A DNA stretch of 32,057 nt from a virus. Each line of letters opens with the position of its first letter. Position 1 is the stretch's first letter. Under the pieces are notes generated by a model, which saw nothing but the letters and a program-made list of their open reading frames with translations, made no database searches and was not told the DNA's origin. The stretch is from IMG/VR virus record IMGVR_UViG_3300050033_000103, positions 1-32,057 of that record; one strand, written 5' to 3'. Below, piece by piece: positions 6,272 through 29,683 of this stretch. Both the position numbers and the translations under genes were made by a program.

Positions 6272-6301
6272 GGCCATTTAAAAAATTCTGTATCTAAAGA
6301 A

Positions 6302-6325
6302 ATGGAAAGATGGAGAAATGGAGAA
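6302..6325 (+). repeat. Left triplet of the 8-bp repeat ATGGARAR
   Basis: Three units follow without gaps: ATGGAAAG, ATGGAGAA, ATGGAGAA. The same three units occur in opposite orientation at 6478-6501. The 16 bases ATGGAGAAATGGAGAA form a perfect inverted repeat with the right copy. Confidence 0.8.
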
Positions 6326-6477
6326 TTAGCACCATCCACACCCCGAAAATCCCTAAAAACGACACTTTATGAACGTGAGAGATAGATATTTATACATTAA
6401 CTCCATATGATTACTCACCTCTACTATTTGTGATAGATTTTATAATTTCATACTAGCGGCGTTTCGCAGCTAACTAT

Positions 6478-6501
6478 CTTTCCATTTCTCCATTTCTCCA
6501 T
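6478..6501 (-). repeat. Right triplet of the 8-bp repeat ATGGARAR
   Basis: On the reverse strand this reads ATGGAGAA, ATGGAGAA, ATGGAAAG with no gaps, mirroring the left triplet. Order and orientation suggest iterons or paired binding sites flanking the AT-rich centre of the control region. Confidence 0.8.
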
Positions 6502-6509
6502 TAGTTTTA

Positions 6510-12432: not shown

Positions 12433-12656
12433 AGCGCATTGGTGGTTTGAAGGAATTCGAAACCAGAATTTGCGCAAACATAGATTGCAGGCGAGCATTC
12501 ACCATAATTAATTGGATGCGCGTGGGCAACAGTATCGTCAAAAGTGCTGGCAGAAAGCAGCGGTATTGTGACAAATGTTCACAATCCCATAATGCCAGGA
12601 CCAGGAACAAACGGATTGTAAACGAACATAAGGAAGTTAGAAAAGGTGAACAATGA
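12429..12656 (+). CDS. Zinc-binding basic protein, GTG start
   Basis: 75 residues. CANIDC at 15-20 and CDKC near 47-50 form a likely four-Cys zinc site. The rest is strongly basic (SAGRKQRYC, ARTRNKRIV). GTG 12429 overlaps the upstream TGA, and its own stop overlaps the peptidase start. Likely a nucleic-acid binding protein; exact role unknown. Confidence 0.55.
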   Translation: MKRIGGLKEFETRICANIDCRRAFTIINWMRVGNSIVKSAGRKQRYCDKCSQSHNARTRNKRIVNEHKEVRKGEQ

Positions 12657-13744
12657 AGAAAGAAGAGTTTAAGGGCGGGTGGCTCAGGCAACAACCAGAT
12701 CATAGGGATTATAGATTTGATGATGTTAGGAAAGCTATTATGCTTCCGGCATCCGTCGATCTGCGCAGCCAGATCAAACGGGTTAATGACCAGGACGGCA
12801 TAGGATGCTGTGTTGGCGAAGGATCCTGCGCGTGCTTTGCCGCATGTCAGGTGCGTTTAACCGGTTCCGATTTTCCAGGGTGCATCAAATACGAGTATAG
12901 AAACGCCAGGATATTATCAGGCACGTTTCCAGGTGATAATGGCGCTGATGTCAGAAGCGGCGTAAAAGCAACCGCCCAATATGGCGTCTGTCCAGAAAGC
13001 GATTGGCCGTTTGACACCAACATTGATGCAACGCCTCCAACAAAATGTGCAACCGACGCAGCGAAAGCAGAAAGCACCAACTACTATCTGCTTGATTCAA
13101 CGTCGGGCGCAGCGCAAACGCTCACCAATATTAAGACTGCATTAGCAGGCGGATTGTGTGTCGTGTTTGGCAGCACCGTTTACGAAAGCATTTTTAATGT
13201 CGGCAGCGACGGCATGATTCCTTACCCAACCGCCGATGATCCGGTTGCAGGCGGACACTGTATGCTGTGGGTTGGCTACGATGACGCAAAGCAGTGCTTC
13301 TTAACATTGAACAGTTGGGGGACAAGTTGGGGAATGAAAGGCTATGGTTGGCTTCCCTACAAGTATGTCACTGCTGGCCTGGCAAATGATTGTTGGGCAA
13401 TCGCAGCAGAATCAGAAATTAATCCGACACCGACACCAACCCCAACACCGACACCAGCAACAGTTACCACAAAATCAGAAATGTTTCCTGTTGTTTCGCC
13501 AAACGGCACAGATGTTGATAAATTCGTGGTTGGAACAGACAAAGCAGTGTGGTGGATACACAACGCAGCTAAACCAGTTTCGCTAGGCGGCATAGCATAC
13601 GAGGGAAAAATGCCAACCGCAGCAATTATCAGCGGCGTTCTCACAGTGTTCATCGAAGGAACAACCCAGGCGCAATACATGAAACAATACGTTAACGGCG
13701 CATGGACAGCAAAATGGCAGAACGTAGAATACCAACTGCAGTAA
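12653..13744 (+). CDS. Papain-family (C1) cysteine peptidase with C-terminal beta domain
   Basis: 363 residues. The start GGWLRQQPDHRDYRFDD is typical of prokaryotic C1 peptidases. The catalytic set is visible: Q47 six residues before C53 (as Gln19 and Cys25 in papain), H202 in GGHCMLWVGYDD and N220 in LNSWGTSWG. A repeated Thr-Pro linker (257-267) joins a beta domain (about 268-363) nearly the same as in the glycosidase-like protein. It probably cleaves the host surface protein or peptide layer for entry or release. It is not of the pseudomurein endoisopeptidase type. AAAAGGTGAACA precedes the start. No signal peptide is visible. Confidence 0.8.
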   Translation: MKKEEFKGGWLRQQPDHRDYRFDDVRKAIMLPASVDLRSQIKRVNDQDGIGCCVGEGSCACFAACQVRLTGSDFPGCIKYEYRNARILSGTFPGDNGADVRSGVKATAQYGVCPESDWPFDTNIDATPPTKCATDAAKAESTNYYLLDSTSGAAQTLTNIKTALAGGLCVVFGSTVYESIFNVGSDGMIPYPTADDPVAGGHCMLWVGYDDAKQCFLTLNSWGTSWGMKGYGWLPYKYVTAGLANDCWAIAAESEINPTPTPTPTPTPATVTTKSEMFPVVSPNGTDVDKFVVGTDKAVWWIHNAAKPVSLGGIAYEGKMPTAAIISGVLTVFIEGTTQAQYMKQYVNGAWTAKWQNVEYQLQ

Positions 13745-25090: not shown

Positions 25091-25099
25091 ACGTAGAAT

Positions 25100-25135
25100 C
25101 AGCAGTTTAACCCTGCTGGTTCTTTTCCTTTATTT
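25100..25135 (+). terminator. Hairpin plus T-rich terminator after the head genes
   Basis: CAGCAG (25100-25105) and CTGCTG (25113-25118) form a 6-bp stem with a 7-base loop, followed by GTTCTTTTCCTTTATTTC. It separates the head genes from the fibre cassette. Confidence 0.6.
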
Positions 25136-25184: not shown

Positions 25185-26576
25185 ATGACAAACGATATTA
25201 CGAAGCAGCGCCCAAAGACGGGAAGAACGCTGCGTGAAGATTCTTCTGTTATTAACACTGCAGATTTGCAGGCGTTAAACACCACTGTTGTAACAACAAC
25301 GCCGCTGATAATTGATGCCGTTTACACTGGCGCAACGCTTGACACATTATCCATTTTTCCAGTTCCTGCAATGGCATTCGCTTATGCACAGTCAGATGTG
25401 GCAAGCGCCACGCTTGGATTTCTGATTGAGCAAAGCGATAATGCAAATATGTCATCGCCAAGCACGATTGTTTCAGCGACGGCATCAGCCGGTGCTCTTA
25501 CGGCCCTGGCTCCAACGGCGATAACGAAGCGATACGTCCGCGTCAGATATACCAATGCGCACGCCAACCCACAAACCACGTTTATATTACTATTTGGATA
25601 TACAAGTGGAACGGAAAACGTCACAACAATAACGGGGTCAGTTACGGCGACGCTATCAAGCCAGGCATTCACAAATGCAATTCTTACGGCTGTTGAAGAT
25701 AACATTACGCACACGCTTGGCGTTCAGATAAAAGGCGTGCGACCCGCAGCAGCAGGATGCTATGCGCATAGGGCAACGCTTGTTGCACCGGATCTTGTTG
25801 GCGCAGTCGCAACCGCACCGACAGTTCCGACGTTCGCAGATGCAACGGCAAACCCAAGTAGCGCGCTCACCAATGTAGCATATAAAGCGGCGTATGTAGT
25901 GCGAAACGGCATGGGTGTAACTCTTGCATCGGCATTAGCAACGGTAACACCAACAAACGGCCACATGGTTCGCGTGACGATCCCCGCAGCATGGGGCTCT
26001 GCCCTTAGCGATACGGACTTGATATATGAAATATTCATGTCAACGGATGCTGCCCCCCTACACATTGCAACGTTCACAGGCGCACAGTTAGCGGCAAGCG
26101 GCACGTCGAATCACGGATGTTACGTCATCACAGCAGAAACACCCGTCACAACTGCTGCAGACGCAAGAGCGGCATGGGCCGTTGATATAGGTTGTGTAGG
26201 AACGGGCATTGCAACGACCAACGCGATGTTTGCAACCAGCACCGCATATTCACAAGCCACGATTGCCGGATTAACGCCGGTTGCAACGACAGGATACAAT
26301 AATGCTGATGTGTTTGTGGATGCGACGCCAACAGCATATTCAGTAGGGGCCGCAGCACCTTCGCTGACGTTAATTCCTGTATATCTAAACGATAAACAAA
26401 CCGCTAATTATCATGTCGGCGCGCCTATCGTTATGAACATATTAGGCGGTGCTGGTCAATCATTCCGACAATTGTATAATCTGACCACAAACGGCGCAAG
26501 TGTGATGATTCTGGTTGGAAGTATCGCAAATGTTACTGTCAACAGAATTGATATAACGCCAACGAGTGTGGTCTGA
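25185..26576 (+). CDS. Large beta-rich structural protein, probably fibre or spike
   Basis: 463 residues, rich in Ala/Thr/Val and poor in charge. It has several repeated beta modules: residues 30-150 (SNN-type strands, YVRVRYTNAHANPQTTF), 200-330 (Ala-Pro-Thr-rich, AAYVVRNGMGVTLASALATV) and 340-463. The pattern is of a virion surface protein; no enzyme motif or named family is recognised. ACAGGTAAAATT precedes ATG 25185. Its stop codon is the first unit of the heptamer repeat at 26570. Confidence 0.6.
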   Translation: MTNDITKQRPKTGRTLREDSSVINTADLQALNTTVVTTTPLIIDAVYTGATLDTLSIFPVPAMAFAYAQSDVASATLGFLIEQSDNANMSSPSTIVSATASAGALTALAPTAITKRYVRVRYTNAHANPQTTFILLFGYTSGTENVTTITGSVTATLSSQAFTNAILTAVEDNITHTLGVQIKGVRPAAAGCYAHRATLVAPDLVGAVATAPTVPTFADATANPSSALTNVAYKAAYVVRNGMGVTLASALATVTPTNGHMVRVTIPAAWGSALSDTDLIYEIFMSTDAAPLHIATFTGAQLAASGTSNHGCYVITAETPVTTAADARAAWAVDIGCVGTGIATTNAMFATSTAYSQATIAGLTPVATTGYNNADVFVDATPTAYSVGAAAPSLTLIPVYLNDKQTANYHVGAPIVMNILGGAGQSFRQLYNLTTNGASVMILVGSIANVTVNRIDITPTSVV

Positions 26577-26649
26577 GGTCTGAGGTCTAAGGTCTGAGGT
26601 CTAAGGTCTGAGGTTTAATGTCTAATGTCTAAATGTCTGAGGTCTGAGG
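26570..26649 (+). repeat. Heptamer tandem repeat GGTCTRA starting in a stop codon
   Basis: About eleven units of the 7-bp motif GGTCTGA / GGTCTAA (later units GGTTTAA, TGTCTAA) run without gap. The first unit (26570-26576) contains the TGA stop of the fibre gene. As seven is not a multiple of three, TGA and TAA appear in all forward frames. It fills the whole spacer to the next start. Confidence 0.9.
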
Positions 26650-26657
26650 CATAAAAA

Positions 26658-26768
26658 ATGGCAGCATCACAACCAACGGGAAACTCCGGTGGAACGCCTA
26701 TACGAAAGTGGTCTGGAAACACATACTGCCGAAAAATGGCATGGCGAAAAGGGGCGGTATTTAGGTGA
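26658..26768 (+). CDS. 36-residue hypothetical peptide
   Basis: ATG 26658 follows GAGGCATAAAAA, the same 14-base leader as the gene at 28805, so it may be a true start. The product is basic (IRKW, YCRKMAWRKG) and ends just before the next gene's ribosome binding site. It could instead be the displaced start of the next gene after a frameshift. Confidence 0.35.
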   Translation: MAASQPTGNSGGTPIRKWSGNTYCRKMAWRKGAVFR

Positions 26769-26772
26769 AAAA

Positions 26773-27942
26773 ATGACCGCGATAGGACTTCAATGGGTTC
26801 AATCGACCGACGCTTATACGCGCCTGGAAGCAACGGCGGGAATGACCGCGGCACAGGCAACGGCCCTATGCAATACGATGGGTCCTTACCAGTATATGCG
26901 CCGCTGTAACGTGCTTGACAACGGCACAATAAGCGCATTTTACGGCGACCGATGTTACGATGATTCAGCCGCTGGCGTGGCTACAAACGGGCAGGCAATG
27001 GTGAACGTCAAAAAGTTTTGGTATGCAACGGACTTCGCAACGGCGGGGACTTACCGATGGTATATCTCTGACACAGGAACTGAGACAATACATCAGGGTT
27101 CTCCGACAGCATGGAAGGTGTATCCGGCGTTTATCAGGAACGGCGTTACCTACAACGATTTATTTGTTGCCGCATACAAGGGGTCAATCCGCGTTATAAA
27201 CGGGCAAGGATGGTATGAATCAAAAGCCGGAGTATTGCCAACGACTAGCACAGAGTGCCATACCCTTTGCGGCACATATGAAACTATCTCAGGGAATAAC
27301 ACCTTAGCGGGCACGCACGGAACTAACTGGATCCCCTATGATTTTCTGTCACACTCCATGCTCCAGATGTTATTCTTACTCGAATACGGCACGTTTAACA
27401 GTCAATCGGTGTTTCCAGGCGTGACAAACTTAGCTACCAATATAAGGGTGAATACTGGACTTACCCCGTTGCTTGGCAATTCTAGTGGACAAGCAACCTA
27501 CGTTGTTCCTTCTACTGGCGAAACCACATACCCGTTTAGTTATAGGGGGATCGAAGGGCTGTGGGGGGACTATGTAACGCTGCTTGCAGGGATTAATATT
27601 AAAGCGGATCATATGCCGTGGGTGGCGGATCATGGTTTTGCACAAGATACATTCGACGGCACTATCTACGTTGACACCGGAGTTACCTTACCATCTGCCG
27701 ACGGGTATATCTCAGACATAGCGCATACTGCGTCATTTGATTATGGTTTTTTAGCCAGCGCCGCTACAGGATCCTCCACAACCAAACTATGTGATTGGCA
27801 CTGGCAGCAGTTGGGTAACTGTTTCCCGAGAGTTAGCGGGGCATCAAACATGGGGAGTTATTACGGTTTGTTTGAATTTGATACTACGCTCACAACAAGC
27901 AACGGCGGTGCTGGAAATACGCGGTTGGTTTTCTATAAATAA
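26773..27942 (+). CDS. Receptor-binding-like protein with possible C-type-lectin fold
   Basis: 389 residues from ATG 26773, preceded by TTAGGTGAAA, the ribosome binding site used elsewhere here; an upstream GTG (26689) would add 28 less typical residues. The middle has a segment found in phage tip proteins (MLQMLFLLEYGTFNSQSVFP). The end WQQLGNCFPRVSGASNMGSY followed by GGAGNTRLVFY resembles the C-type-lectin/formylglycine-type domain of receptor-binding proteins, including targets of diversity-generating retroelements. No reverse transcriptase is present in the window. It probably recognises the host surface. Confidence 0.6.
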   Translation: MTAIGLQWVQSTDAYTRLEATAGMTAAQATALCNTMGPYQYMRRCNVLDNGTISAFYGDRCYDDSAAGVATNGQAMVNVKKFWYATDFATAGTYRWYISDTGTETIHQGSPTAWKVYPAFIRNGVTYNDLFVAAYKGSIRVINGQGWYESKAGVLPTTSTECHTLCGTYETISGNNTLAGTHGTNWIPYDFLSHSMLQMLFLLEYGTFNSQSVFPGVTNLATNIRVNTGLTPLLGNSSGQATYVVPSTGETTYPFSYRGIEGLWGDYVTLLAGINIKADHMPWVADHGFAQDTFDGTIYVDTGVTLPSADGYISDIAHTASFDYGFLASAATGSSTTKLCDWHWQQLGNCFPRVSGASNMGSYYGLFEFDTTLTTSNGGAGNTRLVFYK

Positions 27943-27966
27943 TCAGAAATTCAGAAATTCAGAAAT
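27943..27966 (+). repeat. Three tandem copies of the 8-bp unit TCAGAAAT
   Basis: The repeat starts at the base after the stop codon of the receptor-binding-like gene and is followed by two AAAAAACT-like units up to the ATG at 27991. No other content is seen in the spacer, and no clear ribosome binding site. Confidence 0.85.
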
Positions 27967-27990
27967 AAGAAAAAACTAAAAAACTAAGAA

Positions 27991-28764
27991 ATGACAACAT
28001 ATTACAACTCCATCGTTTGCATTGGTGATAGCATAACCGCAGGCGGCACTACTAATGTCTTAGGCATCCCTGTTCACTATGGTTGGCCATACAGACTTGC
28101 GGCAAGAATGGGTCAACCGTCATCCGTAATAGACAAAGGCGTTGCAGGCGATACAAGCGGCCCATATTGCGGACAAGCGTATTACGTTAATCTAGGTGCA
28201 GGCGGCGATATGCTCACGCGGTTTGACACGGACGTTATTGCATTACATCCGGCATTTGTGATTATTCTTGCCGGAACAAATGACATTTACCGATACATAT
28301 ACGGAGCGGCAGGTTGCCCGCAAGTTGATGGCGTTCCTTATTTGACGGCTAATATTACAACTATGTGCGCGAAGGCAGAAGCCGCGAACATCAAACCAGT
28401 TCTGGCAACGATAACGCCATACCATGAGCAGTGGATAAATTTAGCGACTAATCCGCACACATATGGCGGTTGGTATGATACGTTCATAACAGAAGCGAAT
28501 ATTTGGATAACGGCGTTTGCTGCGGCACAAGGATATTACTGCATCGACTTTCACTCAGCAGTAGAAGATCCGGCGAATCCAGGGCATATGATTCCGGCGT
28601 ATTTAGTCGGCACAGGCTATCCACATCCAAACGCATTAGGGCATCAAGCGATGGCGGATTGTATTGACATTAGCCAGTTTGAATATGACGGGACAGTTGA
28701 AGAAATAACCGCAACGTTCGACGTTAATCAAAATATAACCGTCCCTGTTGGTTGGAATGTATGA
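27991..28764 (+). CDS. SGNH/GDSL-type hydrolase
   Basis: 257 residues. GDSIT with S14 (block I), VAGDTSG (block II region), GTND with N97 (block III) and PHPNALGH with H212 (block V) give a nearly full SGNH set. The acidic residue normally three before the block V His is Gly209, so the triad may use another acid or activity may be weak. These enzymes remove acyl groups from surface sugars or lipids. Within a fibre cassette it is probably a virion-bound esterase that trims the host coat. Confidence 0.8.
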   Translation: MTTYYNSIVCIGDSITAGGTTNVLGIPVHYGWPYRLAARMGQPSSVIDKGVAGDTSGPYCGQAYYVNLGAGGDMLTRFDTDVIALHPAFVIILAGTNDIYRYIYGAAGCPQVDGVPYLTANITTMCAKAEAANIKPVLATITPYHEQWINLATNPHTYGGWYDTFITEANIWITAFAAAQGYYCIDFHSAVEDPANPGHMIPAYLVGTGYPHPNALGHQAMADCIDISQFEYDGTVEEITATFDVNQNITVPVGWNV

Positions 28765-28804
28765 CGTTACGAGATACCGTAACGAGAAGAGGCAGGCATA
28801 AAAA

Positions 28805-29344
28805 ATGACGGGGCATCCTTACAACGGCGGGGCATTGCGTCTAGGCGGAAAAATAGGCACAGAGACGATAGCGTGGGGCGATGATACAAACAGTCCCATA
28901 TACATCGCGCTTATGGACAGCACCTACACGCAGGATGTAGAAAACGACGTTCATTTCTCAGACATTAGCACGCATGAGATTGCAAATACCGGAACATATC
29001 CCAAGGCCGATTTCAGCGGCAGCTTAGACGCGGCGAATCAGTTAACGACTGTGACGCCATATATTGAATCAAAGCTTTTCGCTCCGTATAATTATGTCGT
29101 CTATAATGCAAACGCAGGGGCAACGCCTGCATACTCAATTTTGTGGACAGGGGTAACATTCACTGACATAAGCGGCGCGTGCATCTTTAAGAAAGGCGCG
29201 ACCGCCGCAACAAGTCCGCTGTTCTGCTTTATATCAGACCTGTCTATTGTTAGTGTAGCGGGGGACAAATACTATGTCCTCTTTGATTCGATTGTGGGCG
29301 GCAATCACACGACATTGGGAATATACCACAGGCAGTTGTTCTAG
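28805..29344 (+). CDS. Phage fibre-region structural protein
   Basis: 179 residues. The start (LGGKIGTETIAWGDDTNSPI then YIALMDSTYTQDVENDVHFS) matches a phage structural family whose members begin with a short strand, a W-D-x-D turn and IKVALL-like strands. The rest is beta-rich. GAGGCATAAAAA precedes ATG 28805. Likely a capsid or tail fibre component; exact place in the virion unknown. Confidence 0.6.
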   Translation: MTGHPYNGGALRLGGKIGTETIAWGDDTNSPIYIALMDSTYTQDVENDVHFSDISTHEIANTGTYPKADFSGSLDAANQLTTVTPYIESKLFAPYNYVVYNANAGATPAYSILWTGVTFTDISGACIFKKGATAATSPLFCFISDLSIVSVAGDKYYVLFDSIVGGNHTTLGIYHRQLF

Positions 29345-29365
29345 GTTCTAAGTTCTAAGTTCTAA
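29338..29365 (+). repeat. Heptamer tandem repeat GTTCTAR starting in a stop codon
   Basis: Four units (GTTCTAG, then GTTCTAA three times) run from 29338. The first contains the TAG stop of the gene ending at 29344. The unit differs from the 26570 heptamer, but the arrangement is the same. Confidence 0.9.
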
Positions 29366-29383
29366 GGGATTTACAGGGAAAAA

Positions 29384-29683
29384 ATGGCAGACGTAACTGC
29401 AACCTTTTCAAGCATAGGCGAATTTGAACGCGCATCATGTCTTACAACGTCGCTGTATATGCGTGTATATGCGTCATTTTCAAGCATAGGCGAATTTGAA
29501 CGCGCATCATGTCTTACAACGCGCTTGGGAACGTGGTATGCATCATTTTCAAGCATAGGAGAATTTGAACGGAACGCCTGCAGTCTGCAGTGCGTGATAA
29601 GTAATATTCTAAAGGTTTACACACAACCGATAACGGCGTATCTTGACGAAACACAACCGATAACGGCGTATCTTAATACGTAG
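29384..29683 (+). CDS. Internally repetitive small protein
   Basis: 99 residues. The segment FSSIGEFERASCLTT occurs twice and a shortened third copy follows (FSSIGEFERNAC), spaced 24 and 23 residues; then TQPITAYL occurs twice ten residues apart. The copies are almost identical in DNA, so the duplications are recent or kept equal. ACAGGGAAAAA precedes ATG 29384. Each repeat carries one Cys. It may be a fibre-like or antigenic-variation peptide; the family is unknown. Confidence 0.6.
   Translation: MADVTATFSSIGEFERASCLTTSLYMRVYASFSSIGEFERASCLTTRLGTWYASFSSIGEFERNACSLQCVISNILKVYTQPITAYLDETQPITAYLNT
29405..29572 (+). repeat. Three direct repeats within the coding region
   Basis: A 45-base unit starts at 29405 and recurs exactly at 29477; its first 26 bases recur with one change at 29546. 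Distances are 72 and 69 bases, both multiples of three, so the frame is kept. Confidence 0.9.
29621..29674 (+). repeat. Two direct repeats of 24 bases at the gene end
   Basis: The unit beginning ACACAACCGATAACGGCGTA occurs at 29621-29644 and 29651-29674, 30 bases apart and in frame. A second, unrelated repeat family in the same small gene. Confidence 0.9.

Follow-up and report, generated by a model that had tools for sequence, protein, structure and literature searches.

We found that the heptamer array at positions 26570-26649 of the phage record IMGVR_UViG_3300050033_000103 is best explained as a young heptanucleotide simple sequence repeat, in which the gene end GGTCTGA underwent a tandem duplication and slippage then added further copies. 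We put the probability of this reading at roughly 0.86. The record (32,057 bases, analyzed at its full length and called the window below) belongs to a tailed phage with terminase, portal, prohead protease, Mu F-like and major head protein genes, and it also carries a papain-family cysteine protease gene at 12653-13744 (PF00112). Isolated phages searched with the gene upstream of the array (25185-26576) gave no match, and the tail, capsid and portal genes gave distant matches only. Another record, L005, is a near-identical strain that starts at window position 27853 and shows 3 differences in 4205 bases from there onward.

TRF reported the array at 26570-26649 with a period of 7, 11.3 copies and a score of 88, and also as the 14-mer GGTCTAAGGTCTGA with a score of 102; this result and a base-by-base reading confirmed the eleven units of the original prediction. 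Units 1 to 6 read GGTCTGA, GGTCTGA, GGTCTAA, GGTCTGA, GGTCTAA and GGTCTGA. Units 7 to 11 read GGTTTAA, TGTCTAA, TGTCTAA, TGTCTGA and GGTCTGA, with a single A inserted at 26633 ahead of unit 10 and a trailing GG after unit 11. Seven of the 11 units match GGTCTRA exactly and the other 4 are one base off. The mutations are staggered, a 14-mer higher-order unit is present, and unit decay increases toward the 3′ side. The best 60-nt segment contained 50 period-7 matches, compared to 26-31 in 15 second-order Markov simulations, so that the head-to-tail seven-base copies exceed chance in the manner of a heptanucleotide simple sequence repeat. Because 7 = 1 mod 3, there are stops in all frames of the array.

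Unit 1, the seed heptamer GGTCTGA (26570-26576, plus strand), is made up of the final seven bases of ORF 25185-26576 (..GTG GTC TGA): four coding bases, then the stop TGA. The derived copies (26577-26649, plus strand) comprise ten units, the inserted A and the trailing GG. With the first 7 nt forming the gene end, 73 of the 80 nt of the array are intergenic. The spacer to the next ATG (26658) measures 81 nt; the array had been described as filling all of it, which is accurate for these 73 nt and not for the last 8 nt before the ATG (CATAAAAA), which are non-array sequence.

The upstream gene (25185-26576, plus strand) encodes 463 aa and is fiber-like by position. Its product had no Pfam family and no PDB sequence match, and its PHROG match is a family of unknown function. 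To find relatives we scanned IMG/VR with the protein, which gave 6 loci, and with an alignment, which gave 11 loci including the same six. These correspond to 11 distinct contigs with a homologous gene end (L137-L142, L257, L258, L259, L261 and L262), which have the C-terminal 270-315 residues in common. The C-terminus stops at the same residue in all 11, reading TPTSVV in a five-row alignment. None of the 11 carries the array. Their next ATG lies 0, 2 or 3 nt past the stop, versus 81 nt here. In the six relatives in which it was measured, the distance from the stop to the tail gene is 129, 129, 130, 130, 130 and 150 nt, versus 196 nt in the window.

The gene end of L258, TGTGGTCTGAGCTATG, contains a single GGTCTGA followed by the same G as in the window, and no array; the other relatives end in GGTGTAA, GGTTTAA, GGTGTGA, GGTATAA or TGTGTGA. 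As L258 has exactly one GGTCTGA, the repeat unit is the ancestral gene end, amplified in the lineage of the window only. The sequences compared thus show an old unit, part of the gene, and copies that arose later. The claim that the gene end itself had been copied in tandem therefore holds for this array, and none of the relatives showed the array as conserved coding sequence.

We propose that the seven terminal bases of the upstream gene, stop included, would first have been duplicated in tandem, and that the units would then have been multiplied by slippage, most likely during replication. The 14-mer GGTCTAAGGTCTGA suggests at least one later step in which two units were copied together. Since every unit has a stop, the upstream protein would have been left untouched, and the array could thus be tolerated in an unconstrained spacer.

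Recombination junctions had been offered as an alternative to slippage, and the array might be the scar of an exchange that swapped the fiber cassette at the gene end. The upstream gene is indeed mosaic, with a group of relatives at 65% that matches residues 149-463 only, the backbone relatives L145 and L149 carry different genes at this position, and arrays cluster in the cassette. However, the border of the mosaic is near residue 149, in the front part of the gene and away from the array. The order of protease, capsid, 24605-like gene, upstream gene and tail gene is kept in L258, L259 and L261, and the tail gene after the site is homologous in these three and in L137-L139, L141 and L142. Because gene order is continuous through the site, a recombination junction is unsupported there, and we consider such a scar very unlikely.

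We also weighed whether the array could be an error of assembly. The junction, searched as an exact sequence in IMG/VR, returned 0 matches, and no independent record spans 26570-26649. Against this, the array, at 80 nt, is shorter than a usual short read and has internal variants that allow its placement, and a second array in the same phage is unchanged in the independent record L005. An assembly artefact is accordingly highly improbable.

We then considered whether the array does anything in the phage. Plus-strand RNA of the array folded no better than shuffled sequences (z +0.93), and minus-strand RNA folded worse than shuffles (z +2.3). There was no intrinsic terminator, defined as a G+C-rich hairpin with a T run, at 26570-26657; a terminator-like site is present at 25095-25123, before the upstream gene. 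With no terminator in the array and a fold not above chance, a terminator or structured RNA found no support. A broader possibility is that the array is a functional element: it might insulate the two genes from each other in translation or offer tandem binding sites to an RNA- or DNA-binding protein, as has been proposed for the TAACTGA repeats near start codons. It ends 8 nt upstream of an ATG, has stops in all frames, and is sense-oriented and overlaps the upstream stop like some TAACTGA sets (PMC4679880). Yet it is missing in all 11 relatives with the same gene end, its units decay toward the 3′ side, and neither RNA folding above chance on the plus strand nor a terminator-like site was found. 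We regard a functional element as unlikely; the array is probably harmless and without a function of its own.

The sole likely effect of the young repeat would be on the spacing of the genes around it. Downstream lies a small ORF of 36 aa (26658-26768, plus strand), the positional counterpart of a 41-47 aa ORF in the relatives, to which its sequence similarity is weak (pairwise scores 9 and -5). Because the array parts ORFs that lie 0-3 nt apart in the relatives, the translational coupling of the upstream gene to the small ORF has probably been lost. Abutting the ATG of the small ORF is the ten-base sequence GGCATAAAAA (26648-26657, plus strand), which recurs exactly before gene 28805 and may serve as the start-site leader; a 13-mer, GGCATAAAAAATG, occurs exactly at 26648 and 28795 only. 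More generally, the starts at 26658, 27991, 28805, 29384 and 29691 have A-rich leaders upstream and no clear Shine-Dalgarno site, which may hint at the host. The tail protein (phrog_5302; 26773-27942, plus strand) had its start set by likeness to the N-termini of its relatives; viral contigs scanned with this protein gave no matches.

A second array, with another unit, had been predicted at 29338, and we confirmed it. It reads GTTCTAG(GTTCTAA)3G (29338-29366, plus strand), and its first unit, GTTCTAG, contains the stop TAG of ORF 28805-29344. The array is identical in L005, with no change in copy number, which would be the direct sign of slippage; in L149, the end of this gene (28805) is not conserved. 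Its unit GTTCTAA is one base from the GGTCTAA of the first array. Among pairs of the phage's own gene ends, 24 of 406 are equally alike before the stop, so near-identical units would be expected in ~6% of pairs, a point against independent births. That the two arrays do not stem from one inherited repeat, as was originally held, fits units that differ by one base and gene-end pairs that are as alike, without being proven by them.

Other tandem repeats occur nearby. The spacer 27943-27991 after the tail gene is built of two distinct octamer arrays: TCAGAAAT in 3 copies (27943-27966, plus strand), which begins one base past the tail-gene stop, and AAAAAACT in 2.3 copies (27970-27987, plus strand), before the ATG at 27991. 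The gene that starts there (27991-28764), within the tail cassette, encodes a GDSL-like lipase/acylhydrolase (Pfam PF13472) with ~32% identity in L149 and L150. The 99-aa product of ORF 29384-29683 is internally repetitive, with three copies of FSSIGEFER and two of QPITAYL. At the junctions comparable with L149 the spacers have lengthened: that between the tail gene and the lipase gene measures 48 nt here versus 8 nt in L149, and that between gene 28805 and the next gene 39 nt versus 2 nt.

We counted exact tandem arrays, defined as exact runs with a period of 5-24, and found 9 in the 32 kb of the window versus 1 in 109 kb of nine relatives; 30 third-order Markov simulations gave a mean of 0.27 and a maximum of 2. 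Five of the 9 fall within 25185-29683 (binomial 0.004, the region having been selected post hoc). This supports in part the idea of a process acting on gene ends in the fiber cassette. Elsewhere in the window, in a region poor in long ORFs, two arrays of one octamer at 6296-6329 and 6474-6507 (AGAAATGG and its complement) lie 144 nt apart in facing orientation. Together they make an imperfect inverted repeat of 34 nt (79%) that includes perfect stretches of 14 and 16 nt and may mark the two ends of a small element or form a hairpin.

The likeness of the two units raised a further explanation, in which GKTCTRA would be a dispersed, sequence-specific repeat family that had spread from a host genome or some other element, with both arrays as copies of it. 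Three consecutive GKTCTRA units were present in 15 viral stretches and in at least 117 stretches of bacterial genome contigs. In some genomes a single unit is repeated at many places (GTTCTAA in G016 and GTTCTGA in G024). Among 247 Bacteroidota genomes, however, GKTCTRA was found in 9 (one of them preselected), compared to 2 for each of two permuted patterns and 3, 6 and 11 for three reversed patterns. Because GKTCTRA falls inside the 2-11 range of the six patterns, its spread needs no special explanation, and a privileged repeat family was rejected, control patterns of equal degeneracy being as common or commoner. The unit is, moreover, local gene sequence in L258. A dispersed family is thus an improbable source of the arrays.

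Heptanucleotides have been described as the most abundant class of long simple sequence repeats in most genomes, with slippage proposed as their origin (Mrazek 2007, as cited in PMC4679880). The first array resembles these repeats in its heptanucleotide class, in being longer than chance and in the slippage proposed; they were, in that account, described in bacteria, while the array lies in an uncultured tailed phage. Direct repeats of the heptamer TAACTGA are reported from Beggiatoaceae, Cyanobacteria and Bacteroidetes, with 169 sets of the one unit in one bacterial genome (MacGregor 2015, PMC4679880). As in the phage, the TAACTGA unit is seven bases long, carries a stop, and is intergenic and in sense orientation, and according to the same account some sets overlap the upstream gene's stop, giving stops in all frames, and most lie just before a start codon (PMC4679880). 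Unlike them, the phage has the unit GGTCTRA and two arrays with near-identical units (one base apart); its unit coincides with the end of the gene, and the ancestral state with one copy can be seen.

GGGNATC repeats in Xanthomonas and Nostoc are described as lying mostly <50 bp from a stop, on the coding strand, some of them overlapping the stop (Rehm 2015, PMC4692102). They are G-rich and, by that description, form G-quadruplexes (PMC4692102), whereas GGTCTRA is without any run of three Gs. In the papers searched we found none of the four 14-mers of the GGTCTRA array, no work joining heptamer repeats with phage tail fibers, and no work on heptanucleotide simple sequence repeats in bacteriophage genomes. 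Heptamers at stops are already known; what is new here is the visible single-copy ancestor, in a phage.

We also surveyed where GKTCTRA arrays lie relative to stop codons, using the at least 117 stretches of genome contigs together with the viral contigs. Among the matches listed we counted 147 arrays and kept 106, leaving out the window, L005, repeats of the same 40-nt upstream stretch, arrays <300 nt from the end of a locus and pieces <60 nt from the last. Genes were taken to be the longest ORFs of at least 80 aa, with no annotation used, and the arrays come partly from one genome and are not independent. Of the 106 arrays among the matches listed, 26 began within -10 to +28 nt of a stop on their own strand and 8 lay so in the antisense orientation (p 0.003), an excess that shrank to 33 versus 25 at -50 nt. 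Within ORFs we found 0 of 106 arrays in sense and 23 of 106 in antisense orientation among the matches listed. Part of the sense-antisense asymmetry is forced, as a unit in sense orientation brings its stop with it and so has no place inside a gene.

Again among the matches listed, 11 of the 21 arrays that start 0-28 nt past a sense stop were in register with it, where 3 were expected (p 0.00004), compared to 3 of 12 antisense arrays. Register with the stop is not forced in that way, yet invasion of a gene end by an array, followed by decay of the array's first unit, would also produce it. Birth and invasion are separable only by comparisons such as that with L258. Taking all heptamer arrays in four bacterial genomes gave 4 in 1.6 Mb, a sample too small for a general test.

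The survey offers suggestive support for the wider idea that, across bacteria and phages, heptamer arrays with stops in their units generally arise at stop codons, which we hold only tentatively and think rather doubtful. Under it, the four last coding bases and the stop would be duplicated, because only there can a frame-shifting duplication of seven bases spare the protein, and the arrays would later spread or persist as spacer DNA.

Intergenic heptamer repeats have long been described in bacteria, and the phage case bears on their origin. It places the states before and after side by side, with a single GGTCTGA at the gene end of one phage and eleven units in its relative. Where heptamer arrays come from can thereby be examined by counting across gene families. 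If stop codons are indeed their general birthplace, widespread intergenic heptamers would be fossil gene ends.
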